Assembly (NCBI GenBank): GCA_021234155.1
Contig: JAJEKV010000138.1
Coordinates: 372,001-436,000 of the forward strand
Reading direction: 5' to 3'
Source: Isoetes taiwanensis
Lineage: Eukaryota > Streptophyta > Lycopodiopsida > Isoetales > Isoetaceae
Length of the DNA stretch: 64,000 nucleotides
The translations under genes and the position numbers were made by a program. Under the pieces are notes generated by a model that saw only the letters and a program-made list of their open reading frames with translations, had not been told where the DNA came from and searched no databases. Below, in pieces: positions 28,311 through 57,425 of this stretch. Positions within the stretch are counted from its first letter, which is position 1; the number at the start of each line of letters is the position of its first letter.

Positions 28311-30365
<2,055 letters not shown>

Positions 30366-38036: not shown

Positions 38037-38107
38037 AGTCGCCCCCGCGAGATGAGATTTGATGGAGAAATCGAATCAGAGGATACCAATTTGGGGCTTT
38101 TGTTGTG

Positions 38108-38252
38108 GGCCGTTCATCCCAGAGATGGACGGCCGAGATCAATCTCTACCAACATTTTGGTACACCAACAATAGGGATGCTTGGGGAGTTACGAGGTGGC
38201 ACCGTCTGGACCGTCCATCTCAGAGATGGACGGCCGAGATCAATCTCTACCA
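38108..38252. repeat. Hairpin-bearing dispersed repeat (two local copies)
   Basis: CAGAGATGGACGGCCGAGAT and CAATCTCTACCAA occur at about 38,111 and 38,220. The second copy carries a perfect hairpin CCGTCCATCTCAGAGATGG then ACGG. The block 38,171-38,252 reappears in reverse complement at 57,158-57,239. Confidence 0.85.
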
Positions 38253-40519
38253 AAAATTTGTGGCATAATCTCTACACCATTTGAGACTCTACATCATTTG
38301 TGGCACCCAATATAATTGTCCCTAGGATCCGTAAAAGTTGGTATCTGGGTTCCGAAACTCTTTAGACAGTTTATACGATCCGAAATTCAGAGTTGATCGT
38401 TGGCAGGATTAACCGAGGGACACAAAGTTACACACAGAGGACGTCCACCAAACAACTTTTGGCATCGTTAAATGGTTTTAACAAGGACCGCTTAGTCAAT
38501 GTCTTTAGGCGGACATTTAAAGACTATACACCAATAGGGTGTAAATATGAAGCAAAACAAGTTTTGCAGCTCATGGACTTATTATAATGACAAGGATGCA
38601 AAAATATTATATGCCTTCTACCCCTTGTTATTTAAGGTCATCAAGGCTCTCTAAAGAAAGAATGGATATTCAACATTATAGAAAGAAGAGAATATTCCAT
38701 TAATATATAGGAGTTAGGCGCCAGAGATCATGCATTTACATAATTTCTGAAGCAACAATCAATTTCAGAGGCAGATAGTAAATTTTTACATGTGGTGGAG
38801 AAATTGATATCCCGTAAAGGGGCATGCTAAGGGGTGATATATTTGCAAAGGTTTGGCCATATGCAAGGATATAAAACTTACAAGGGGTTTGCCAATGATC
38901 TATTAGAGTATGAAAATATTTTAATTTGGCAAGTGGGTCCCCTTGGTTGGAAAGCTAGAGTATTAATTTCTAGCATTCGGTTATGGGAATTTTGACACCA
39001 AAGATTGGGCATGAACATAACAATAACCAATTTTAGTGGCAAACAATAAAGTTTGACAAGTTTTGGAGATATTATTATCCCTTAAAAAAAGTGGGTCATG
39101 CTAGGAGGAATAATAAGTTGCGATGGTATTTGCCGGAAGCTAAAAACCTTGCATGCAAGGGTTTGACAAGTGACTATTGGGCCACAAAATATTTCGAAAT
39201 TGGCAAGTAGGGATTTCCTTATGGGAAGGCCACGTTTTGCCTTACCGTGTAGACATAAGGGGGATAATCGGTGGCTAAGCTCAGAGGTCTGGCACATCGC
39301 CCTGGCTAGGATAGCCAGACAGCTCGGGACAGGGACAGACAGATAACGCTTTTCCCAAGCTGAGTCTGGAGTAACTTCTGAAGGCGATTTTGGTTGACCT
39401 CAGTTGAGACACAGATGCACAGGTAAAAATTATTATTGCAAATGTTTATTTTTGACCTGTATGCAACACTTGAATGGATCTTATGATAGTTTGCCATGAG
39501 AAAATATAAGCATGCTTGGTGTTGCACGTGGTATTTTTCATATTTTTGGAGGTGATAAAACATCTAATTTCACTTGAAAGCTTTGCACAGATATAGAAAA
39601 TTTTTCTTGTTTGCAAGCCAACTCTTCTATTATTTTTGCGGTCACGAGACAATGGCATGTATTATTGTGCCAATCTTAACGGTGGGCATCTTTGGATTGG
39701 AGCTAAACACTAGTCATTGTAACAATGGTTTTCGAGGAACAACAAGGATTGGAAGGGATGGAGACTAACAACCGGGTTCTTTTCTACTTTGGTTTTCATA
39801 AAGCATCTGTTATGAAATCCAACAAATGGATTATTCTTTGTATTATTGCCAAATGATGGCAAAAAACATAGTTAATGATGAGGATTTTCTCAAACTATGT
39901 TTCAAGCTTGATAGAGCATTATGACGTTGATAATGGATGTGATGGTTATGCCGTACTCACATATGATTATTGAAGCATAATAGTCCCATCATTCTAGTGG
40001 TAGATTTTACCATTTCTGTTATGCTCATCTAGACATATTGGTCTAGATATAGTTATAGATGTTTTTGTTAAAATATTTTTCATTGTGGGTGAATAGACCA
40101 TCTATGTAGTAATTGTATAAGGGAGATATTTGAGCATGTAGACCACCAATATGATTTCTCTAATGTAGGAACTCCTATGACACCGATAGCAAGGGGGGGT
40201 ATTTTAAAAGCTATGACACCTGCATTCCTGTAGTTGACAACGGTTCTAACTCTTGTTTTACTATGGACGGTTGCAGGTAACAGCTTTCCCCACCTAGGAG
40301 TACATGTTCTATATTAGAAGATCATAATATGGTCGGTAAATTTGTATTCTTATATGCTCATTATGACTCAAGTAACAGATGAGTCTAAAATGCGTAGGAG
40401 TATAATTCAATGTTGCTATCTGTTGCTATCTGTTTCTTTCACTTTAGTTATTGGATCCCAGTTAATGGAAGGTTGCTTGAGATAAGCAAAATTCATATAT
40501 ATACATACATATATATATA
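38253..40519. other. No gene recognised
   Basis: Anonymous. Weak duplication between about 38,810-38,960 and 39,065-39,240 (CATGCTA..GGG..ATA, GGTTTG.CAA.TGA..TATT). Ends with GGAAGGTTGCTTGAG and a TA-rich run directly before the large repeat element. Confidence 0.45.
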
Positions 40520-41717
40520 GGGCATCTGGTATGGCCTTTACTTAGATTTGGCAGTTCTTAAGCATAAGGCATTTACCCCTCCTTGGTTTGTTCAGCTGGA
40601 ACTTGGAAGCATTGTCTTGTGAATGTGAAACTTGTGACAAGTGCACTTTGGTTTAAAATACCCTGAGTAGTTTATTTTAGACCTGACCCATGAATATTAG
40701 GTGGACATATGGTTCAGTTACTCATTCATGAGCACAAGTGTTTAATTTTGACTAAATTGTGATCATTAGCATTAAACTTCTGGAATGACATTGTTTGTGA
40801 AACATTGATAAATAATGGGCATCAGTTATGATACATTAAGCAAATGGGGTTATCATTATGTTGTCTTTATACTAAACAGGTTAAAATTGCACATGCATAG
40901 GTTTTCTTATGATCTTGGTCTTAGCTAAACCCATATCATGCATCTACATTATATGGGAGCCACTCAAATCCCGCCCTATGGCTATCTTGGTTCTGGCACT
41001 ATGGCTATTATCTTAATTTCTCTTTATAGTAATTCCCCCTTATAATAATTCCCATTCCGCACGGAATTCATTATTTGTATAGTACAAGATCATATGCAGG
41101 GTAATACTAAATTATGAATGTTAATTTCACTCTAATATGGCTTTTATACTTTGGGACCAGTCTATTATAACTAGCCTTAACATTTATTTACGCTTATATA
41201 GCTTTTATATTTTGAAGACCAATTTTTTGAGAAATAGCCTTAGTATCTAACTCTTCTCATACTTGATTACCTTGGCATAAATGTGGCTTATAGTCTAACA
41301 GTTCGAGTACATCCATTACATATGTTGCCATAGAAACCATGGGTAACACTTTGTAACATCTATTAGTCCTTTATTAACCTCGGAATTTGCCTATGTGGGT
41401 TTTTTTGTGCTATTTTCGTAAAATCAACCCTAACGAAGGGCTCCAGCAAATGGCGCAACCCTAAAAGCTTTGCAGTATGGATCGTCACTGCCCGATGGCT
41501 TGACGGATCCCTAACAAACCTGGACGGTGACTGGAGGCTTCGACGTGGTAGGTACTATGGCATGATTGACATCATTTGGCGGCGCCAACTATTTTTCGAA
41601 TATTGTATGCGTGGATAGTTGTTACATAAATCTTCTTGTAAACATGATATGGCATCCCATAATCAGCAGGATTCGACTCCAAAACAGGATTAACTGATAA
41701 TTTTGTGTTTTGCAACC

Positions 41718-41725
41718 TATATAAA
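41718..41725 (+). promoter_or_regulatory. TATA box in direct repeat 1
   Basis: TATATAAA lies 43 bp upstream of the exon 1 ATG, a normal distance for transcription to start just before it. An out-of-frame ATG at 41,736 opens a short upstream frame if it is transcribed. The same box is in repeat 2 at 49,420. Confidence 0.6.
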
Positions 41726-41760
41726 GGCTCGTAACATGGATTTTCGTCTTATTTGGGAAC

Positions 41761-42108
41761 ATGAGCAAAGCAGGAAGACCAGAGGGCGCCCAAAACAAAG
41801 GGCAGACCAGGCAAAAATTGATTGAAGTGCTCAGGAAGCATGGGATTGAACATCCTAGTGTTCAACCAACTAAGGCCCAGCTGCAGGAATTGTGCAGAAT
41901 TAATAACATTGATCCAGGGAGGGATAGAAATGACAGCAATATTAAGAAGTTCATGCCAAGCTTACAGGGCTGCAGCAATGCTCAGAAGGAAATTGAGATA
42001 TCTGGCAGGGTGGATCTACCTGGTAATATTGAGATGGTGCCACTCTCACCAACTGATGAGGACGAATCTGATAATGACAAGATGGAGGAAGAAATCCAGC
42101 CTAACCAG
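41761..42108 (+). CDS. PLE-like polyprotein, exon 1 (AT-hook/SAP-like)
   Basis: 116 codons in phase 0, ending at CAG before a GTTCAG donor at 42,109. It starts MSKAGRPEGAQNKGQTRQK, with a GRP AT-hook-like core. A helix-turn-helix-like QPTKAQLQELCRINNID follows, resembling SAP or HeH DNA-binding folds, and the exon closes with an acidic TDEDESDNDKMEEE stretch. Without splicing the frame stops after four more codons at 42,121. Identical protein sequence is encoded in repeat 2; the one base difference seen (CTC/CTT) is silent. A DNA-binding role is inferred from motif resemblance only. Conservation of the protein between repeats supports coding, but the repeats are so similar overall that this is weak evidence. 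Confidence 0.65.
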
Positions 42109-44200
42109 GTTCAGCATGCTTGAATTTATTTTCATAACTTCCACTAATATTTGTTGAATATCTATCTGTTGCATATTTATTTGTGGCATATTGCATGTGA
42201 ATCTTGTGCTTTCTTGCTCTATGATTGGAATTCGTGTACTAGATAACTTGAATATTATGCCAGCTTATTTGAATTGTATATTACTTAGCTGCTATTCCCT
42301 GTTGCAGATCTGATCCTTGTTGCAGATCTGATCCTTGTTTGATGACTTTGTTGATCCATAAGCACATGTTTCTTTTAGTATTTGGGACCTATTCTTTGTT
42401 GCTGATCTAATCCCTTTATGACCTTGTAAATCCATAAGCACAAGTTTCTAATCATACTGTTTCCCTTAATCTCCATGCAGGCTGAAAATCCATGCTGAAT
42501 GGTAGTCTAATGTCATATTTGTAGCAGCTTTGTCCATAATCCTGTTGCCGCCTAGATGATATAGGATATGGTAGATGATTTGATCCTTTGGCTACCTCAA
42601 CCTGATGTACATATTAATTATGTTGATTTAACCTATTTGGCTGCATGGCACAACTATCTGCTTCCGGTGACCTAATGTTTTTAGCACAGGTATTTTGTAT
42701 AGGAGATTGAAGCATCACCTGGTCATAGATAAAACATGAATTGCTTCTGGCCCGTCCTCTGCTACAGATCTGATCCCGGGTGGTTAAACTAGGAAGTTCA
42801 AAATCATTTGAATTTAATCTGTATTGAATTCTCAGGGCCTCCATGACTGCTGAATATCCATGCAAAATTATCTATTAATGTCATAGGAGCACCCAAGTCT
42901 GAGTACTAACCCTAACTTAATTGCCTGAAAAATATGATCTGTGGTTGATGATCGGATTCTTAGTGATTTTAATCTGTTAAGCCAATTAATTAGGCTGTTA
43001 CAATTAGGCTGTTACAATTTGGTATAGGGTAGGACAGATTCATTTGACACTGTGCCTCTGAGCATAGACTGGTAAATCAAAATAAAGCCTGCTGTAAACT
43101 TAATTATACAGTTGTTTGGTAACATCTCTTATCTTATCTTATCTTGTTCCATTATGGGTAAGTATGGCATTTGGTAAACATGCCCTTAATTTCGATATGA
43201 GCAGAGCACAAATTTAAAAGGTTCCTTACTTGCTGAAATTAACCCTATTTTATAATTATGTTCTATAAATGATTTTAAATGTGTATGTATGGGTGAAGGG
43301 CTGAAAATGCCAAGGATGTTCTTTGCTTACCTGCTAGTCAATTTCACTATTACCCAGTAGGCTAATATGTGATCTGTTTGACTGCAGGTAACCGAACTTC
43401 CTTTTCCCATGTCTTTCATGGTTGAGTTTGGATGTTTACGAGCGGATAATATTATCTTTTACAGCTTTTGATATGACTTTGAATATTATAATGTTTTTAT
43501 GAACATGGTATGTTACTTGAAGTTCCTTTGTTCTATTGGAGGAATGCAATTAAGCAGGTTTCTATATCTGCTACCTTTTTGTTTCCCATTAAAGACATGC
43601 ACTTCAGTAAAGTATTATATTACTGCATATCTTATGTTTCATTCTTGTGGATTTTTGTAAGACTCTTGCTCATTTAAGAAATATTAAAGTTTGTCTTCTG
43701 ATTTGTTTGACCTGAAAATGCCTATTTAATATGTTTCTGTACCTCTGATCTCCTCTTGAATACGCTGATAAGTTTGAACTTTGCTTTTAGAGTGTCCTTT
43801 TATGCCTTGTAAAAATACTGGTTTTATGCTGTATGGTTTACAATTTATTGTTATTTCAAATGGTTTCCAAGGTTCCCCTTATGGTTTTTTCTGTACCATA
43901 AGGGACTGATAAGTCCTATAGTTCTTGGGTTTCTCAAGGCTATATGGATGGCAGGTCATTTCAAAAGGTTGTGGCTCTGGCCAGTCTATATATTTCCTAC
44001 TTCAGTTCACTAGTTATACTGGTGTGGGCCTTGGAAACCATTATTATTATTATTATTTTTTTTTTTTTTTTTTTTATGGTGTTTTCACCTTCTACATTTG
44101 CATGATTTACTTCCTGACTAAATCCTTATACTCTATGTGCATTCATAAATTTTGCAATTCTTTTAATTCTTCTAATTTATTGTTATTGAATTCTCTTTAG
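42109..44200 (+). other. Intron 1 of the PLE-like gene, crossing the repeat/body border
   Basis: 2,092 bp from GTTCAG to a good acceptor TTCTCTTTAG. Donor and acceptor are both in phase 0. The first 1,883 bp lie inside the direct repeat and the rest in the body, which includes (TTA)n and a T20-type run near 44,040-44,077. Smaller internal exons are possible (for example after CTCCATGCAG near 42,480), but none is needed. Confidence 0.6.
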
Positions 44201-45788
44201 GAGGGTTCTACCCTGAGCAGGCAGTCCTTTAGTATCCCTCATGGGAACTTGCAGCAAGCTGGTGATTCTAGACCGGGCTGGTACCCTGAACTCAGCAGAC
44301 TTGGTTATTCGGATGCTGGCATCACGGCACCCAACAAAGCTGTGCAAACTGTATTGTCCTGCATTTTTAAACCAGAGATACATCAGATGTTTATAGCCAA
44401 GGAATGCTCTCTTGTTGAAGGGGAAGTTTCTGTTATACTATTCTTTGGCCTCAACAATATGCTTGACCTTGTGTCTATCATCAATCAGGTAAACTATGAT
44501 CCTCCTATCTGCAAAGAACTTATTGACAATTCTTATAATATGCTTCCTGGAGCTCATATAATGGCTGATAAGAAGGACATGCGGGATTTATTATCTTTTG
44601 TCAAAGGCCTGTATGCCTTGGAGGAGGTTAATAGCATCAAACACTCCTTTCCCCCTAGGAACCTGAATTCTCAAACTCAGAAAAAACCAGTGTCCAAACC
44701 GGTCCTTTCAAACAGCCTATTCAATATCAGTTTGTTGGAAGAGGCTGAACAACAGCCTGAAGTTGAACCTGTTACAGTTGATGTTGATATTACTGAGGAT
44801 GAAAGAATTTCATCTGAGCTGAAAGCATACAATATAAATGAGCTCAATCTTTTTAACTGTGGCGGATTTCCTATAATGTCCAATAGAAATGTGGAGGCTC
44901 ATGGTGAGCAGTTTCAGCAAGCTTTATGGAGAAGCAACAATCTCGGTGTAATTGCTCCTATTAACCTGGATTCTTGGATTAAGCTTGCCAATCTTACTGC
45001 TGATGAAGTCAAGAAAGCAAAGACTGATGCTCTTTCCTTTACTAAGCGTATCAGACGCATTTTTCCAGAACTTCCTTTCAACTATTTCCAATTCCTGGAA
45101 CGAAAATGCAATGTTGGCACAGGTTCATATATTGGTCAGAAAGGGCATATGGCCAAGACATCTGAAACCAGGATTGACTTTTATCTTAAACGTATATGGA
45201 GAACATACTGCCCTTTCCTTAAATGCAACTGTGATACCATGACAGATGTGAAGTGCCCGGATAATATCATGTGGTTTGACCATGTGGTTTGGTTCATGAT
45301 GAACAATCTGGAGGTAATATGGCCGAATGACTGCATTCAGAAGAGATATGCTTTACTGTCTTCCTTTCTATCCACTGAACCCATCAGAGGTGTGGTTCTG
45401 GCCTATGTAGGATACCTGTCAGTCAGGGAACTGATGTTTGAGATGACCCATAAATGGGCCATCAATCCCAATTGTAATCTGAAGGAGCTCTTTGGAAATT
45501 CCAAAACTGTTGACCTGATTGAGAAGACTATTAAATCTATGGAATTTCTCAAAGAACATTTGCATGGTAACTACAGTTATGGGTATGCTACTTCGGGCAA
45601 GAAAAGATTTCAGGCAGCAAACACACCACCAAGTGGCATTCTTAGGCCACCAAAACTGCTAAAAGCTCCAGCAAACAACGTCCCGGCAATTACAAGATTG
45701 GATGACAAATTTACTACAACAAGAACTGATGCACAGACAAAAAATCCTGGTGTAGCGCTTGGTACCAGAATTAATAAAGTCAAATTTG
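44201..45788 (+). CDS. PLE-like polyprotein, exon 2 (unknown N-terminal region)
   Basis: 529 codons plus one base. The exon opens EGSTLSRQSFSIPHGN, just after the acceptor. Visible parts: a globular stretch with SVILFFGLNNMLDLVSI; a linker rich in Gln/Glu/Val (EAEQQPEVEPVTVDVDITED); a compact region with FTKRIRRIFPELPFNYFQFL, CPFLKCNCDTMTDVKCPDN (four close cysteines), WFDHVVWFMMNNLEVIWPN and LAYVGYLSVRELMFEMTHKW; and a basic tail. No GIY-YIG, gag knuckle (CX2CX4HX4C) or protease motif is seen. The cysteine group CNC...C could bind zinc, which is a guess. If intron 2 is not spliced, the frame ends in TGA at 45,791. I do not recognise the domain family. The length of N-terminal extension is reminiscent of endonuclease-deficient PLEs. 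Confidence 0.7.
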
Positions 45789-46013
45789 GTTGAGGTATTA
45801 TTCCCCTACCTTCTATTCTTTTTTAATTATCAATCTGCAATTATGCAATTTTCTGTTCCTTATTTTTAGCAGTATACTCTTTGTCTATCTATTGTATGAT
45901 TGTTTGTTTATGCCTGACTGTATCGGATTGTGCATTTAATGCATTTAGTTCCATATAATTGGCCACAGAGCCTTAAAACTTTACGGGATTTTTCCCTTTC
46001 TCTCTATTAATAG
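45789..46013 (+). other. Probable intron 2 of the PLE-like gene
   Basis: 225 bp, GTTGAG donor and pyrimidine-rich TTTCTCTCTATTAATAG acceptor. Exon 2 ends in phase 1 and exon 3 begins with the two bases that complete a Glu codon, so the exon 2 frame passes into the RT frame. The donor is weak. If not spliced, the RT would need its own start. Confidence 0.5.
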
Positions 46014-48112
46014 AGTACCCACTGTACAAACAGATCAAATGGAAGGAGTTATCTTGTAAGATTGATGGACAGTGGAAATTAAAGACAATTAGGGAGGAGA
46101 AAAAGTCTAAATATGTGCATTTCACATATTTTTCCAAGACTATGGACAAAATTGATTTCTGTGGAACATTTAAGACTGTTCTATGTAGACACCTTGGTGA
46201 ATTAGGGAACGAAGTATGGGAAAACACGACCTTTGGATGGAGATATGTCACTAACCTGAAGGATTTATTCTACAAACCAAAAGTGGTGTTTGCTAATATT
46301 GAGCAGCCAAAATGCCCTTGTGCAAACCCTAATCTAAGTAAATTCATTGACCCATCAACTGGACATGTCCGCACTACTGATTTGAGAATCATACATAATA
46401 AGGCACTTCGAAAGTGGTTCTCTTTGGGACTGAACTACATTCCTGATTATCCATTTTCTCTACAGCAATTTAAATATGAGATGGCCCAGACCATTGAACA
46501 ATTCTTTAATGTTCATCGTTTTGACCTCGGTGGTGATGATAGCATCTCTGTTCAAGAGTGTAAAAAAGCTCTCAGAAAAGAAACTAAATGGTTGGCCAAG
46601 TATTTCATTGAAAAGAATTTGACCACGCACAAGAAATTCATGATCCATGATGATTTGGTCATCAAAAATATGGATTGGATTATTAACAATCTATATACTG
46701 CTGGGGTCGATAAGGCAGCAAATAATCCTTCTTTTATTTGCCCTTGGCACATTAGACAAGAGGCCACTAAGAGATTACAGAGTGAGGATTTCAGAAAATG
46801 TGAAATCAGTAAAGATGACCTCATAATCCAGATTCAGGATGACCTGCAGAACATGTTAGGAGATGGACACATCTCCTCTCTTGAACTTCCATACCTTCTT
46901 GGTATATTTAAAGCGCATAAGAACGAGTATAGATGGATCACAAATGCGCACGATAGCATGTTTTCAGTTACAGCATCTTTAGTTGCCACTGGGCTCAATC
47001 TAATCCTTGATACGTGGACAATCATTTGTCATGATAAATGTGCAGCAGCTAACCTATTTTTAAAGGACAAGATCAGAGCAGCATGGATCATCAATTCTGT
47101 CTATGATATTGCTTGTAATCTCCCGGCCAAAATTGATAATGTTTTTGTGGCGGATATAGCCAAATGTTATGAAAATATACCATTAGATGGCAATGAAGGC
47201 ATATGCAGTGTTATGGAAAATATTATTAATTTGACATGGAAGTACAAAAAACAGATGCATCAAGGGTATGAACTCTGGTATACAATATCAGAGAAATGGA
47301 ACATTAATATGGTCTGGAAGGATAAGGTACCTGACGGAAATAAGTGGCATAAAATGGACAGAGATCTTTTTGTTAATCTCAACAAATGGCTCTTATGTAA
47401 CTGCTACTTGTCAATGTACAATGGGATCTGGAAATAGATCAAAGGAATCCCTATGGGGTTTGCATCTAGCCCTGGATGGTGCAATCTATATCTAGCCTGG
47501 TTCGAGCTTAAATTTATCTTGGAACTCATTAGCAAAGGTAAATTACAGATAGCAGCCGCCTTCAGAAATACCTTTAGATATATTGATGATCTGGCTGGAA
47601 TTAATAATCCATATATCAGAATCTATCTCGGTCTACAAAAGGATGATCCAAATGAATCCTTTATATATAATCTGAAGCACCTAGCAATTAAAGATGAAAC
47701 CACCTATTGGGTCAGCAAAACAATAGGAAGAAAAATTGATTTTCTCAATATGACTATTGAGGTTCTTGCCCCTCACCTTGGTACTTATCTTACCTACAGA
47801 TACGACAAGAGAAATAAACTGCCATTTAAAGTTTCTAAATTTGTGCATGCCAGCAGTTGTCGTCCATATTTGATGGCTTGTAATATTATTATATCACAGA
47901 TCCAACCCTACCTTTATGTGCACAGTAGTCCAATTAGGGCTGCCTTTGATCTGGTGCAGTTAATGGAATACTTTGTCAGTCTAGGATTCCAGAAGAAAGA
48001 TGTTTGGCATAAAATCTCCAGGATACTACATATGGAAACTTTTCCTGGACTCAGGTTTGATATCAGTATGCTAGTGGCTGAACTGCACAAATACAAGTAC
48101 CATTTCATATAA
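46014..48112 (+). pseudogene. PLE-like reverse transcriptase, exon 3, with one TAG
   Basis: The frame is open from 46,014 to TAA at 48,110 apart from TAG at 47,435-47,437. Motifs in order: LPYLLGIFKAHKNEYRWITN (RT 1/2 region, like the PLE LPKIHK...RPI), FVADIAKCYENIPLD (motif A, Asp at 47,153), GIPMGFASSPGWCNLYL (motif B), FRYIDDLAG (motif C, Asp pair at 47,585-47,590), IGRKIDFLNMTIEV (motif D) and YRYDKRNKLPF (motif E/thumb). This set fits Penelope-like RTs better than LTR or LINE RTs. In the spliced frame the motif C tyrosine is about residue 1,168 of 1,344. After the thumb the protein ends at YKYHFI with no GIY-YIG endonuclease. The TAG lies between motifs A and B and is the only lesion seen. 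Single-copy rvt genes are the main alternative. Confidence 0.85.
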
Positions 48113-48125
48113 TTTTGATATAGTT

Positions 48126-48199
48126 GGCAGGAGGGTCCCTACATAGGGGCCCTCCAGCCCTTATGTTGCATGGGAACCCTCCTGCCTTCCGGCAGGAGG
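48126..48199 (+). promoter_or_regulatory. Bistable hairpin segment at the 3' end of the body
   Basis: GGCAGGAGGGTCCC (48,126-48,139) can pair with GGGAACCCTCCTGCC (48,172-48,186). That same CCTCCTGCC can instead pair with GGCAGGAGG at 48,191-48,199 across a TTCC loop. A small CCCTACATAGGG stem sits inside. A TA run and direct repeat 2 follow at once. It may be a 3' recognition structure for the RT or an RNA-processing signal; this is inference. Confidence 0.6.
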
Positions 48200-48221
48200 T
48201 AGGAATATATATATATATATA

Positions 48222-51200
48222 GGGCATCTGGTATGGCCTTTACTTAGATTTGGCAGTTCTTAAGCATAAGGCATTTACCCCTCCTTGGTTTGTTCAGCTG
48301 GAACTTGGAAGCATTGTCTTGTGAATGTGAAACTTGTGACAAGTGCACTTTGGTTTAAAATACCCTGAGTAGTTTATTTTAGACCTGACCCATGAATATT
48401 AGGTGGACATATGGTTCAGTTACTCATTCATGAGCACAAGTGTTTAATTTTGACTAAATTGTGATCATTAGCATTAAACTTCTGAAATGACATTGTTTGT
48501 GAAACATTGATAAATAATGGGCATCAGTTATGATACATTAAGCAAATGGGGTTATCATTATGTTGTCTTTATACTAAACAGGTTAAAATTGCACATGCAT
48601 AGGTTTTCTTATGATCTTGGTCTTAGCTAAACCCATATCATGCATCTACATTATATGGGAGCCACTCAAATCCCGCCCTATGGCTATCTTGGTTCTGGCA
48701 CTATGGCTATTATCTTAATTTCTCTTTATAGTAATTCCCCCTTATAATAATTCCCATTCCGCACGGAATTCATTATTTGTATAGTACAAGATCATATGCA
48801 GGGTAATACTAAATTATGAATGTTAATTTCACTCTAATATGGCTTTTATACTTTGGGACCAGTCTATTATAACTAGCCTTAACATTTATTTACGCTTATA
48901 TAGCTTTTATATTTTGAAGACCAATTTTTTGAGAAATAGCCTTAGTATCTAACTCTTCTCATACAACAGTTACCTTGGCATAAATGTGGCTTATAGTCTA
49001 ACAGTTCGAGTACATCCATTACATATGTTGCCATAGAAACCATGGGTAACACTTTGTAACATCTATTAGTCCTTTATTAACCTCGGAATTTGCCTATGTG
49101 GGTTTTTTTGTGCTATTTTCGTAAAATCAACCCTAACGAAGGGCTCCAGCAAATGGCGCAACCCTAAAAGCTTTGCAGTATGGATCGTCACTGCCCGATG
49201 GCTTGACGGATCCCTAACAAACCTGGACGGTGACTGGAGGCTTCGACGTGGTAGGTACTATGGCATGATTCAGCATCACTGGCAGCGCCAACTATTTTCT
49301 GAATATTGTACAGTGGATAGTTGTTACATAAATCTTCTTGTAAACATGATATGGCATCCCATAATCAGCAGGATTCGACTCCAAAACAGGATTAACTGAT
49401 AATTTTGTGTTTTGCAACCTATATAAAGGCTCGTAACATGGATTTTCGTCTTATTTGGGAACATGAGCAAAGCAGGAAGACCAGAGGGCGCCCAAAACAA
49501 AGGGCAGACCAGGCAAAAATTGATTGAAGTGCTTAGGAAGCATGGGATTGAACATCCTAGTGTTCAACCAACTAAGGCCCAGCTGCAGGAATTGTGCAGA
49601 ATTAATAACATTGATCCAGGGAGGGATAGAAATGACAGCAATATTAAGAAGTTCATGCCAAGCTTACAGGGCTGCAGCAATGCTCAGAAGGAAATTGAGA
49701 TATCTGGCAGGGTGGATCTACCTGGTAATATTGAGATGGTGCCACTCTCACCAACTGATGAGGACGAATCTGATAATGACAAGATGGAGGAAGAAATCCA
49801 GCCTAACCAGGTTCAGCATGCTTGAATTTATTTTCATAACTTCCACTAATATTTGTTGAATATCTATCTGTTGCATATTTATTTGTGGCATATTGCATGT
49901 GAATCTTGTGCTTTCTTGCTCTATGATTGGAATTCGTGTACTAGATAACTTGAATATTATGCCAGCTTATTTGAATTGTATATTACTTAGCTGCTATTCC
50001 CTGTTGCAGATCGATCCTTGTTGCAGATCTGATCCTTGTTTGATGACTTTGTTGATCCATAAGCACATGTTTCTTTTAGTATTTGGGACCTATTCTTTGT
50101 TGCTGATCTAATCCCTTTATGACCTTGTAAATCCATAAGCACAAGTTTCTAATCATACTGTTTCCCTTAATCTCCATGCAGGCTGAAAATCCATGCTGAA
50201 TGGTAGTCTAATGTCATATTTGTAGCAGCTTTGTCCATAATCCTGTTGCCGCCTAGATGATATAGGATATGGTAGATGATTTGATCCTTTGGCTACCTCA
50301 ACCTGATGTACATATTAATTATGTTGATTTAACCTATTTGGCTGCATGGCACAACTATCTGCTTCCGGTGACCTAATGTTTTTAGCACAGGTATTTTGTA
50401 TAGGAGATTGAAGCATCACCTGGTCATAGATAAAACATGAATTGCTTCTGGCCCGTCCTCTGCTACAGATCTGATCCCGGGTGGTTAAACTAGGAAGTTC
50501 AAAATCATTTGAATTTAATCTGTATTGAATTCTCAGGGCCTCCATGACTGCTGAATATCCATGCAAAATTATCTATTAATGTCATAGGAGCACCCAAGTC
50601 TGAGTACTAACCCTAACTTAATTGCCTGAAAAATAATAATTGTGGTTGATGATCGGATTCTTAGTGATTTTAATCTGTTAAGCCAATTAATTAGGCTGTT
50701 ACAATTAGGCTGTTACAATTTGGTATAGGGTAGGACAGATTCATTTGACACTGTGCCTCTGAGCATAGACTGGTAAATCAAAATAAAGCCTGCTGTAAAC
50801 TTAATTATCTGATTGTTTGGTAACATCTCTTATCTTATCTTATCTTGTTCCATTATGGGTAAGTATGGCATTTGGTAAACATGCCCTTAATTTCGATATG
50901 AGCAGAGCACAAATTTAAAAGGTTCCTTACTTGCTGAAATTAACCCTATTTTATAATTATGTTCTATAAATGATTTTAAATGTGTATGTATGGGTGAAGG
51001 GCTGAAAATGCCAAGGATGTTCTTTGCTTACCTGCTAGTCAATTTCACTATTACCCAGTAGGCTAATATGTGATCTGTTTGACTGCAGGTAACCGAACTT
51101 CCTTTTCCCATGTCTTTCATGGTTGAGTTTGGATGTTTACGAGCGGATAATATTATCTTTTACAGCTTTTGATATGACTTTGAATATTATAATGTTTTTA

Positions 51201-51692
51201 TGAACATGGTATGTTACTTGAAGTTCCTTTGTTCTATTGGAGGAATGCAATTAAGCAGGTTTCTATATCTGCTACCTTTTTGTTTCCCATTAAAGACATG
51301 CACTTCAGTAAAGTATTATATTACTGCATATCTTATGTTTCATTCTTGTGGATTTTTGTAAGACTCTTGCTCATTTAAGAAATATTAAAGTTTGTCTTCT
51401 GATTTGTTTGACCTGAAAATGCCTATTTAATATGTTTCTGTACCTCTGATCTCCTCTTGAATACGCTGATAAGTTTGAACTTTGCTTTTAGAGTGTCCTT
51501 TTATGCCTTGTAAAAATACTGGTTTTATGCTGTATGGTTTACAATTTATTGTTATTTCAAATGGTTTCCAAGGTTCCCCTTATGGTTTTTTCTGTACCAT
51601 AAGGGACTGATAAGTCCTATAGTTCTTGGGTTTCTCAAGGCTATATGGATGGCAGGTCATTTCAAAAGGTTGTGGCTCTGGCCAGTCTATAT
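48222..51692 (+). repeat. Direct repeat 2 of the PLE-like element
   Basis: 3,471 bp copy of repeat 1 in the same orientation. It contains the TATA box at 49,420, exon 1 at 49,463 and intron 1 up to GTCTATAT. It then continues into unrelated sequence (CAGGTAGTACCAGC) instead of the body. Confidence 0.95.
49463..49810 (+). CDS. Orphan exon 1 of the PLE-like gene in repeat 2
   Basis: Encodes the same 116 residues as 41,761-42,108. Its GTTCAG donor is intact, but the matching acceptor and exons 2-3 are not present downstream, since the repeat ends inside the intron. Transcription from here would give either the short unspliced 120-residue product or splicing into flanking DNA. Confidence 0.55.
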
Positions 51693-51905
51693 CAGGTAGT
51701 ACCAGCTTTTCCCACTTGGATGCAGGATTAATAATATTTAAGACTAGCCTGGAACATCATCATGCAACAAATATGGGTTATAATGAATTATTTTTAAGCT
51801 ACAAATTCCTAGTTACTATATTTTTGGCATTTATCAAGAATATAGATCCTGTAAAAGGAAGGTTGCTTGTAAAAGCATAATATATATATACATATATATA
51901 TACAA
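51693..51905. other. Right flank of the PLE-like element, resembling the left flank
   Basis: The stretch 51,844-51,900 (GATCCTGTAAAAGGAAGGTT, GCTTG, then a TA-rich run) resembles 40,455-40,519 (GATCCCAGTTAATGGAAGGT, TGCTTG, then a TA-rich run) just before repeat 1. It may be a long, diverged target duplication or the remains of another element end. Confidence 0.45.
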
Positions 51906-54860
51906 GTTCTTGTACTATCAATGGGATAAAATAAAGGGAAGATTACGAAAATTCTCCTATCATGTAGCTTCTTTCCTACTTCTTTTGGCACATGAAGTTT
52001 TTTAATCGATCCTACGGTGCATGTTCTAATGTGTGCATGTTTCAGTTTTCTAAGAATTTACGAAGATTTTCACTTTTTATGAGATTTCCTTATTCTAGAA
52101 TTTAAATGCTCTTAAATTTTACGAGATTCCATTAGATTCTCGTAGATTCTCTTATATTTTCTGAGATTTCCTTAGATTTTATCAAAATTCCTTTAGATTC
52201 CCTTAACTTCAATGAAGATACCTTTAGATTTTCTAAGATTACCTTACATTCGATTCTCTCAGATTTTACGAAGATTCCCTCCCTTACTATTCTAGTTGAT
52301 CAGTCAAAACTCATCAATTTGCTCCCACGACATTTTAGAACATCCAGCAAAAAGTTTACGTCTTATGAAGATTCCATTAGATTCCAACAAATAACTACTA
52401 TCATTAGGAACTTTTCAATATTTAGTATTCTTAGCAACTTCTATTTCTCGATCAAAGGCGAATCAAGAACTTAGATTCTCCAATATTTTATAAAAACTCA
52501 CTTATATTTTGTGGCATTCTATTAGAATGCCATAGATTTCAATAAGAAGTTACTATTTTTAAGAAATTTTCAACTTATTCATTTTGGTTAACGAGTCAAA
52601 GCTCATTCTTAAAGTTGGATTCGTTGTACATATATTTTTTTAGAAGTATCGACATATGGTTACGAAAGTTGGAGTATTGGTTGCATTAATTGCATTAGAT
52701 GTGTAATGTTATGTTGTGCACCATTATTACAAATAACATGAGATTAATAATTTATTTGTTGGGGTGTAAGTTATAAGATACAAAGTGTCAAGGTTGGACA
52801 ATTCTTAATTCTCGAAGGCACTAGTAGAGAAGAATGTTAAATGTTACGTAATACCCAAACATGTTATATGTTTTTATTTTGCAACGTTTTCTAGGATACA
52901 TGAAGTTCAAGTTATTTTCATTGATTTCTAATTAGAATAGGCGTCATAAGAAAGGTTGTATGTTCTCTCTTTTAAGGTCCCTAATTTTAAGGTTCTAGTC
53001 TTTGGCCCTAATTTTTGGTTCTTGATTTACATCCATGATGATTTTGCTGCAACTTTTGATAATCAATTCCGATAATTAGTCTAGGTAGGTATCCAAAGAT
53101 AGATTCTCTCCTTTCTTTATTGTCCACTATATGATATAAGTAGTAAGTTCCTTAGGACATGTCCCTAGACTTAGGTCCCCAAGAAGTTTCACAATATGAT
53201 GGTGACACCATCATTTTAAGTTTTCTAGTGCCCATGGTTATAGATGCTATGGCTTAGACACAAATGGCTTCACTGGCCATGTGTTAAAAAATGACTTGTT
53301 TGTATGGCTCGAAAGCCATGCCTTGGACACAATCATGTCTTGAGAGAGGAATTATATCTTTCATGACATTTTTGAGCCATCGATATTTGCATTCTACATT
53401 TTTACCCACCCAGTATTTGCATTCTCCATTTCTACCCACCCAATATTTCCTGGAGTACATGCAGCGATGGTGACTGTATTTTTAATCAATGTGAAGTTTG
53501 GAGACTTATGTCACCATGACAGCGACTGTATTTTTAGTCAATGTGAAGTTCGGAGACTTATGTTACCACAAAGACTTATGTTACTACATTAATACACACT
53601 TCTATTTTGATTGTGGTCCCAATACTAGATCCGAGTGGGTATTCAAGCATTAACTTGAACTTCACATGAATTACATTTTAATACCTTCACTTTAAGATAA
53701 CACACAAAATATGTTAGGCTCAAACACCGTATGGTGCCAAAGGGTGCAAACAAAAGTCAAATTGAAGCTAGAGATACAAACAATATTTGTGTCAAGAAAT
53801 ATGTTAGGCCCAAACCCCTATGGTCCCAAGGGGTATGAACAAAAGTCCATACAAAAGATTGAAGCATGAGATCGAAACAATACTTGGTAGAACAAACATG
53901 CAAAATAATCAAAACGGTTTGACATCACATTTTTCCAACCAAAGAGATTCTGGCCAGTAAAATTGTGGGTTGAGGCAGCAAGAACCCAAATATATGCTAG
54001 CAACATAGCAATCCCATTCGCAGATCACACAATCTAATCCACCGGCATTCGCATTGCTGAAAGTAGGTATTTTTCAGTTGACAACGAGATGTAGAAAAGA
54101 TTTTGCCAACCTTTACAGCCAAGCACTCAAAATTGTTTATCCCAAGCACTTTATATGTTTCACTGCTTCGACTTATAAACACAAACAAAAGATGCAAAAA
54201 TAACAATGGAAAAGGACAAAGATGAAGAGACTTGGACCTATTTCTACTCGTTCAGTTGATTGACCTAATCAAAACTGGCCATGCTTGATTCACCATAAAA
54301 CTGACCATGCAAAAGCAAAAGTTTCCTCAGCATTGGACAAAGTAATTGTGCTAAAAAAAAAGTTAATGACAACGATAAAGCCTCTTTTCCTCCCCTCTAT
54401 TCTACTCATTTAGTTGACTTGCTGCTTCTGCAACTATGGCACTTCAGCATTATGCAAAAGTTTCATTTAAGTAAAATGAAGCCCCAGATAAAGAACAACT
54501 TAAAGGCCATTGAGATCTCCCACATACTGCAAGGGCAGTGGAAATGTCTACCATCTTCCTTATTTGACGTAAATATGAGCCATTAACTACACTTTGATTT
54601 AAAGATTCTGACATTGACAACGCACATCATTGTGCAATACTCTTGCCTTTGTCATTGCATGCTGAGAAACATAACTTTTATCAAAAATATCACTTGAGAA
54701 ATGCACACCAACCCCTTTCAATATCATGTCACCGTAAAGTAACTAATAGATGCATACCATATCCAGAAGCATCTGTATCTTCTTTGCCAGTTGCAAAATG
54801 TAAACATTCTACAATCACCTTATACCGTCATTCAACTTCCAGATGTTGTGGATGATCTTG
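51906..54860. other. No gene recognised
   Basis: 52,060-52,270 is full of AGATT(C/T)C and TTAGATT words. 53,468-53,580 carries a ~55-bp imperfect tandem (CGACTGTATTTTTAGTCAAT). 53,705-53,845 carries two related copies of ATGTTAGGC.CAAAC with TATGGT.CCAA.GGGT. A phantom minus-strand frame near 54,000-54,200 has no known domain. Confidence 0.45.
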
Positions 54861-56819: not shown

Positions 56820-57425
56820 ATGAGTTACTAATTGATGGCCGAGATGAAATCTTCAAATCCAAAGGTCCATATCAAAAGCCCCAAATAAGGGGGCACCTTC
56901 TTGCACCTTCCCTAAAAGAAATCAAGGGCCACGATTTCTCACGTGCCCGATCGACGGCCCAGGGATGGGGTGCATGCCCCATGCATGCCCCCCCATCAAA
57001 TCCAAGGGCCATTGTCGCGACACCTCAAAAAATCGACGGCCAGGAATAATCTCTACAAACTTTCACCCCCCCATAGGACCCATAATATAATTGTATATAT
57101 ATATAATAGATATATATCCTTATATATATTTATACAATTATATGGAGGTCTGGATCATGGTGTAGAGATTGATCTCGGCCGTCCATCTCTGAGATGGACG
57201 GCTCAGACGGTGCCACCTCGTAACACCCCAAGCATCCCCTTATTTGGGGCTTTTAATCTGGGCCCTTGAAATTGGGGCATTTTATCTAGACCGTCGATTA
57301 AAATTATTTGGGGCTTTTCATATGGGCCGTCGGATTAAAAGGGAAGGTCAAATCTTGGCCGTCAATTTTGGATAGGAAGTTGCAGGGAAGGTGATAGAAT
57401 TGGGGCTTTTAATCCAGATCATTAG
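56820..57425. repeat. Cluster of GGCCGTC/GACGGCC repeats and an AT microsatellite
   Basis: Words such as GGCCGTC, AAAGCCCCAAATAAG and its reverse complement recur many times. 57,158-57,239 is the reverse complement of 38,171-38,252, including the hairpin CCATCTCTGAGATGG. An AT-rich microsatellite spans about 57,090-57,140. Confidence 0.8.

Follow-up and report, generated by a model that had tools for sequence, protein, structure and literature searches.

The 64,000-nucleotide stretch of Isoetes taiwanensis DNA analysed here (the window; contig JAJEKV010000138.1, positions 372,001 to 436,000, or G000:C950:372001-436000 in our genome set) contains a retroelement that a preliminary description, made from the letters alone, had taken for an endonuclease-less Penelope-like element (PLE) with long direct repeats. 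The two repeats are real. They align from 40505–43991 to 48207–51692 with 99.255% identity over 3489 positions, with 21 mismatches and 5 gap openings, and judged by this near-identity the window copy is young. The element itself starts at 40520 with GGGCATC and is preceded by TA-rich DNA. Between the repeats lies a body that includes an exon for a reverse transcriptase (RT), and the features of the whole locus are collected in Table 1.

The preliminary description left a region of about 900 residues before the RT core unassigned. This region resolves instead into an exon located in the repeat (E1, about 116 residues), a second exon beyond a predicted intron (E2, 530 residues) and the N-terminal part of the RT exon. 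The E1 donor (CAG/GT) is kept in the window copy (copy A) and in three further copies, B, C and D, although for copy B the match is in the right repeat only. In the window copy the predicted acceptor before 44201 joins E1 to E2 in phase 0, and acceptors of the form (T)nAG/GAAGG recur in further copies; PLEs retain introns in their genomic copies. Transcription would start near the TATA-box-like sequence TATATAAA. An AT-hook or SAP identity of E1 was considered and not adopted, as the matches to HeH (E 0.03–0.06) and, in one copy, SAP_new25 (E 0.012) fall below cut-off and serve as a hint only. Weak matches of E2 to PDB entry 4s1a (E 0.0097) and, in one of four copies, to DUF6917 (E 0.0025, sub-cut-off) are not considered meaningful.

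The two open frames at 46115–47437 and 47453–48112 form a single RT exon split by a TAG at 47435–47437, and the RT motifs quoted in the preliminary description are all found in it. When its C-terminal part was used as a query against the genome (1,658,258,908 bases in 1110 contigs), 2917 first-look candidates were obtained; the best 150 were scored and every one was a match, with 56–100% identity and E<1e-76, spread over many contigs. An open frame of at least 680 residues is present in 87 of these 150 copies. Eighteen intact relatives, drawn from 19 intact frames after omission of L023, which is near-identical to L022, were aligned, and identity averages 74% over the columns. A Cys-Pro-Cys motif is invariant in all 18 rows, and the alignment also carries the motifs DKA, HK, ADITKCYE, GIPMGF, RYxDD and DFLN. 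Among the 153 pairs, the 20 with measurable dS gave dN/dS values of 0.043–0.133 (median 0.078), a range indicating that the RT family, which is large and diverse, is constrained by purifying selection.

Table 1. Features of the element and its borders in the window copy (window coordinates).
Feature	Position	Strand	Basis or remark
TA-rich left flank, putative insertion site	40494..40519		Element-free paralogous flank beside copy D carries the same tract
Left direct repeat (pseudo-LTR), from GGGCATC (unit start) to CTATAT	40520..43991	+	Repeat alignment
TATA-box-like TATATAAA, 43 nt upstream of the E1 ATG; second copy at 49420	41718..41725	+	Sequence
Exon E1, about 116 aa, GRPEGAxNKG and a weak HeH/SAP-like match, ending AACCAG/GT	41761..42108	+	HeH below cut-off
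Predicted intron 1, containing the conserved RNA structure	42109..44200	+	Donor and acceptor sequence
Conserved RNA structure, six helices	43862..44039	+	14-copy alignment, covariance model
CTATATAT, fixed end of right repeats and putative start of reverse transcription	43986..43993	+	Junction search, tail reads
Exon E2, 530 aa, no domain above cut-off	44201..45790	+	Copy comparison, Pfam scans
RT exon: CPC motif, DKAANN, KAHK, ADIAKCYENIP, GIPMGFASSP, RYIDD, KIDFLN	46034..48109	+	TAG-interrupted in window copy
3′ terminal hairpin region of the unit	48122..48203	+	Alignment of hairpin loci
TA repeats at the unit boundary	48204..48221		Sequence
Right direct repeat; tail end CTATAT, then CAGGTAG	48222..51692	+	Repeat alignment, junction reads
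Second copy of E1, in the right repeat	49463..49810	+	Sequence, genome search

The plan of a body between direct repeats recurs elsewhere in the genome. It is present in all three further copies that were read over their whole length, B, C and D (4 of 4 with the window copy); their repeats lie in like positions and have a sequence strongly diverged from that of the window copy's repeats. The E1 protein served as a marker of the repeat: 777 candidates were found in the genome, and the best 150, all of which were scored, all match. E1 stands on the same strand on both sides of the RT in at least 17 of the 150 RT copies (4.5–6.1 kb before and 1.1–4.4 kb after), on the same strand before the RT only in at least 25 and after it only in at least 27; among the matches listed, a single RT copy has E1 on the opposite strand within 12 kb. 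The repeats are thus not peculiar to the window copy; had they been, the preliminary description would have counted this against its proposal. At least 15 pairs of RT copies lie within 20 kb of each other, and 8 of the 11 pairs spaced by 7.1–9.2 kb are on the same strand, as expected for tandem units. In copy D the left repeat is about 2.2 kb shorter than the right and begins at an internal TA tract.

Two of these copies hold further sequence. In copy D (L036) a minisatellite array of about 1.9 kb, partly similar to DNA near window positions 52082–52281, right of the window element, separates the 3′ end of the unit from the right repeat. The right repeat of copy C (L034) is interrupted by an RT that by eye resembles that of a long interspersed element (LINE; motif YLDDVNLM).

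The right repeats end at a fixed site within the sequence of the unit. In a junction search with 43700–44100 as the query, 11 of 35 genomic matches stop at query positions 292–294, which correspond to CTATATAT. All nine retrieved tails that end in CTATATAT continue into a longer TA tract, and with copies B, C and D such a tract follows the right repeat in 12 of the 13 tails read. The left junctions are in TA in all four copies, of which A, B and C start at the unit start. Outside the element, TA tracts of at least 12 nt make up 0.21% of the window. Tails (12 of 13) and left ends (4 of 4) consist of TA tracts, in contrast to endonuclease-deficient PLEs such as Athena and Coprina, which attach to telomeric repeats at chromosome ends; the survey did not extend to telomeric repeats near other copies. 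In the genome at large, the tail pattern YYAGTCTATATATATATATA occurs 60 times; a scored RT copy is found within 20 kb of 29 occurrences, and 24 of the 29 are downstream of the RT and on its strand. For the segment that follows CTATATAT in full units, a pattern occurs 12 times, against none for its control.

TA repeats also mark the 3′ ends of units. A GC-rich hairpin (TTGGC...GGAGG) was found in 22 of 30 RT loci, and TA repeats come next in all 22. In the other eight loci, each read over 1.5 kb, the hairpin was not found; in L004 the RT is truncated, and in L011 and L023 the start of a hairpin lies at the end of the stretch. The consensus from 19 of the 22 loci (L008, L026 and L030 were excluded as disrupted) has 24 pairs, 5 of which are changed on both sides, a modest degree of support for the structure.

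Some TA-bearing repeats recur at these borders. At window positions 29192–29290 and 51880–51903 an element-free TA tract leads into a repeat that starts with ACAAGTTNTTGTACT, and similar sequence lies beyond tails L063–L065; this combination may be a common landing site. The TA to the right of one tail (L061) and that to the left of copy B (L089) join the same TAGGAGTGGCTTCCGGAAGC repeat, a coincidence which indicates that TA-bearing repeat ends have been used more than once.

The fixed end lies inside a conserved RNA structure. Full units continue past CTATATAT into a conserved segment, and 11 bases upstream of the site (GGTTTCCAAGG in the window copy) form pairs with 11 bases downstream of it (CCTTGGAAACC). 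An alignment of 14 copies gave a fold of about 180 nt with six helices and 46 pairs, in which 97.2% of cells are paired; in slid controls, 27–47% were paired. Nineteen pairs are changed on both sides, compared with a mean of 12.3 in shuffled alignments, and none of 500 shuffles reached this number. Some lean in these statistics is expected, because the alignment is sequence-based and the structure was predicted from the same alignment. The 14 sequences were taken from 17 distinct junction sequences, with L050, L056 and L057 omitted as near-duplicates of L049 and L053; L047, whose upstream part is non-homologous, and the duplicates L044 and L051 were excluded, and the row of the window copy lacks its first bases, whose cells were set aside. 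A covariance model built from this alignment found copy C, which was outside the training set, at 122.5 bits, with unrelated matches at 8.3 bits or less, and the copy C fold contains an additional compensated form of helix 3. Folded alone, the window copy reaches −75 kcal/mol (z −6.8). In the consensus fold the TATAT of CTATATAT is unpaired.

A hammerhead identity was considered for the RNA motif CUGAUAAGUCC, which by eye resembles the core of the ribozyme. This assignment was rejected, as the catalytic G is an A, Rfam finds nothing, and the CUGA is paired with covariation (CUGA/UCAG and CAGA/UCUG, with UUGA/UCAA in copy C).

Taken together, these data argue, with a probability that we put at roughly 0.7, that the locus is a PLE without a GIY-YIG nuclease, built as a pseudo-long terminal repeat (pseudo-LTR), a body and a truncated pseudo-LTR, which primes its reverse transcription on TA microsatellites. 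Its membership among the PLEs is probable. A read-through RNA of tandem units, or a circular unit, would carry the fold, and the RT would bind it; the 3′ half of the fold is missing from the inserted tails. Where a TA tract of the host DNA is broken, UAUAUAU would then pair with its 3′ end, and the break would replace an endonuclease cut. From there cDNA synthesis would move upstream, first through the pseudo-LTR, then across the UA-repeat boundary and through the body of the unit before it. At the next UA repeat it would stop, or second-strand priming would start, which would leave both ends in TA. Insertion at TA repeats with priming on UAUAUAU would explain how an element without a recognised DNA-cutting enzyme finds places to insert. 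We infer all of these enzymatic steps from the anatomy of the sequence, which is what has been observed.

This scheme has consequences for the RNA that serves as template. Since the fold lies inside predicted intron 1, splicing would remove it from the protein-coding mRNA, and unspliced RNA alone would be the template. Because the 3′ half of the fold is absent from the inserted right repeat, a lone insertion has no second complete fold to offer, and tandem units or circular RNA should be the source of full-length copies.

Several observations weigh against priming on TA repeats or against the PLE assignment. The tail of the window copy has no TA continuation (CTATAT/CAGG). The sequence that follows TA in the element-free paralogue of its left flank was not found to the right of the window element. 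The reversed-pattern control for YYAGTCTATATATATATATA is high (34 occurrences against 60), and 31 of the 60 YYAGTCTATATATATATATA sites lie away from any scored RT. Three of the 11 RT pairs at 7–9 kb are on opposite strands. With respect to the RNA, further standard pair types show no excess (39, compared with 42.0 in shuffles); the first letters of CTATATAT, CTA, close helix 5, the weakest of the six; and the ensemble of the window copy gives CUAUAUA a pairing probability of 0.33–0.66, although its minimum-energy fold leaves the site unpaired. Canonical PLEs carry a hammerhead ribozyme in the pseudo-LTR, and none was found in window positions 40000–52500 (Rfam, E up to 5). An hhalign comparison of the RT alignment with the host telomerase RT (TERT) scored 25.0 and was not significant, as the best of 30 TERT shuffles reached 23.5. 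Finally, E2 could hold a nuclease.

If it did, the element would be the same, but E2 would be its own nuclease, of a new fold or a decayed GIY-YIG, cutting TA repeats and making host breaks unnecessary. We consider this unlikely. E2 is conserved (55–88% identity to the window copy) and carries an invariant YIGQKGHMAK plus a downstream Arg, and 150 scored RT copies on many contigs call for an efficient source of primers. However, the Tyr of a GIY strand is, by eye, not conserved in E2, and no GIY-YIG or other nuclease profile was matched by E2 in any of four copies, by E1 or by the 18 intact RT exons. Pfam scans of E1, E2 and the RT exon with E limits of 1 to 10 were negative for GIY-YIG, integrase, protease and RNase H, in agreement with the preliminary description, which saw neither a GIY-YIG domain nor LTR-element genes. 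A genome search for GIY-YIG yielded 263 candidates, of which the best 150 were scored and 121 match; among the matches listed, comparing these 121 with the 150 RT copies, the closest GIY-YIG lies 84 kb from any RT copy.

In three of the top four GIY-YIG matches, L037, L039 and L040 (G000 C1030, C1078 and C1079), GIY-YIG frames of 115–118 residues adjoin helicase frames that are Helitron- or Pif1-like by eye, and in L038 the GIY-YIG stands without a helicase frame in the stretch read. The 121 matches, among those listed, suggest a mobile GIY-YIG nuclease family in I. taiwanensis.

The RT might also be a mobile telomerase-like enzyme, in which a UAUAUAU template in a folded core would be annealed to TA ends, perhaps copied repeatedly, and followed by the whole element. 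This more specific idea is doubtful. Were it true, a nuclease-free retroelement would live and spread on a microsatellite that it primes itself, and which it might even lengthen.

In another account the TA tracts are not targets but later products, arising when repeats expand at the junctions or when a TA tail is added in the course of reverse transcription. The length and perfection of many tracts, and the 3′ hairpin of L008, which has itself been invaded by TA, are in keeping with it. It is nevertheless quite unlikely, as an element-free paralogue of the left flank of the window copy, located beside copy D, holds the same imperfect TA tract, and an element-free TA tract with the ACAAG repeat at 29192–29290 resembles the DNA beyond several tails. 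Because the paralogous flank has the tract without the element, the TA at the left junction of the window copy appears to have predated the insertion. The flank shows pre-existing TA and not a full empty site, since the sequence after its TA lacks a counterpart on the right of the window element.

A further possibility is that an RT of another class (an rvt gene, a LINE or an unnamed class) has arrived at a PLE-like plan by convergence. The similarity to known RT profiles is indeed very low. Neither half of the window RT matched RVT_1 in the Pfam scan; all 18 intact relatives did so at a limit of E 1, with a best E of 7.3e-6, and the score displayed for one member (E 0.00084, 19.5 bits) is under the Pfam cut-off of 29.6. 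In one member the RVT_1 alignment places 160 residues across 96 profile positions. A group II RT profile matches 8 of the 18 members (best E 0.005). The hhalign scores of the RT alignment against host gypsy (19.3–20.4) and LINE (16.4) RTs are not significant, and single-sequence AlphaFold2 models were unusable (pLDDT 35 for the RT exon and 34 for E2). A single-copy rvt gene is excluded by the copy count, a check that the preliminary description had proposed, since 150 of the 2917 candidates were scored and all match. The tail signature seen in the genomic copies is called unique to PLEs in the accessible part of PMC11167929, and convergence of another class is quite unlikely.

A second telomerase-like gene, L085 (G000:C1062:4065477), is present in the genome besides the clear host TERT (L084). 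It is rich in Asn runs and is possibly foreign or misassembled.

Least probable by far is an LTR retrotransposon with unusual genes, true LTRs and TA as its target-site duplication, for which a body framed by near-identical direct repeats of fixed ends might speak, but which is opposed by the lack of protease, RNase H and integrase profiles, the repeat ends GGGCATC...CTATAT, the shortened left repeat of copy D with its start at an internal TA, the resemblance of the eight same-strand RT pairs at 7.4–9.2 kb to tandem units, and the termination of the right repeat within the conserved RNA fold. The tails are better fitted by the pseudo-LTRs of partial tandem copies, as first proposed.

Among known systems, the PLEs of the Naiad/Chlamys group have a CxC motif before the RT, microsatellite junctions, no hammerhead, an insertion in the fingers domain between motifs A and B′, a long spacing of these motifs, and an N-terminal GIY-YIG. 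The Isoetes element resembles them in the CxC motif, the microsatellite junctions, the absence of a hammerhead and perhaps the long spacing (about 97 residues between motifs A and B′, at alignment positions 371 and 468), and differs from them in having no N-terminal GIY-YIG and in its extra exons E1 and E2. We know of no covarying initiation RNA from that group. Telomerase carries a short template, complementary to a DNA repeat, in a folded RNA. The Isoetes element is similar in that a short site in a folded RNA matches a DNA repeat; unlike telomerase it is mobile, its template would lie within its own RNA, and repeat addition is only conjectured.

Initiation of reverse transcription by PLEs is known from one purified enzyme, as far as the accessible part of PMC11167929 states. 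That enzyme belongs to the Anolis carolinensis PLE Poseidon PAc, which has an internal start of reverse transcription at which its genomic tails end and requires RNA downstream of the start site (PMC11167929, same part). The Isoetes element shares with PAc the partial tandem plan with pseudo-LTRs and tails that end at an internal site (here the geometry comes from genomic sequence alone, 11 of 35 matches stopping at 292–294), with a conserved RNA segment downstream of that site, and differs in that the site where it presumably starts is complementary to TA, its target. Endonuclease-deficient PLEs are listed in Selaginella, Pinus and Picea in the accessible part of PMC9033089. Like such elements (Athena/terminons and the Selaginella element), the Isoetes element has no GIY-YIG nuclease, and like terminons it has an RNA sequence complementary to the DNA end that it would use; in the accessible parts of PMC12477314 and PMC9033089, terminons have an RNA whose 3′ end bears C-rich repeats next to a hammerhead, and use telomeric overhangs, in contrast to the internal UAUAUAU and TA microsatellites in Isoetes.

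A literature search, with most subscription papers outside its reach, found no account of this element family among the papers listed. The word "Penelope" is absent from the main text of the genome papers on I. taiwanensis (PMC8566536) and I. sinensis (PMC10541799), and the accessible part of the former names LTR elements. Beyond the preliminary description are the TA junctions, the copy number, the exon plan, the 3′ hairpin, and the fixed end of the right repeats with its covarying RNA. They bear on how nuclease-free PLEs might insert away from telomeres, and the family offers a defined, portable RNA (about 180 nt, covarying) together with a defined target (TA repeats). If priming occurs as proposed, telomerase would no longer be the sole natural example of an RT whose internal RNA template is complementary to a DNA repeat; this family would be the second, and TA microsatellites would be insertion sites in the Isoetes genome.

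The surroundings of the window element contain one further repeat. A GGACGGCCGAGATCAATCTCTACC repeat at 38106–38260 is direct with a spacing of 101 bases, and it recurs in inverted orientation across the element at 57162–57238, with 96% identity over 77 bases.

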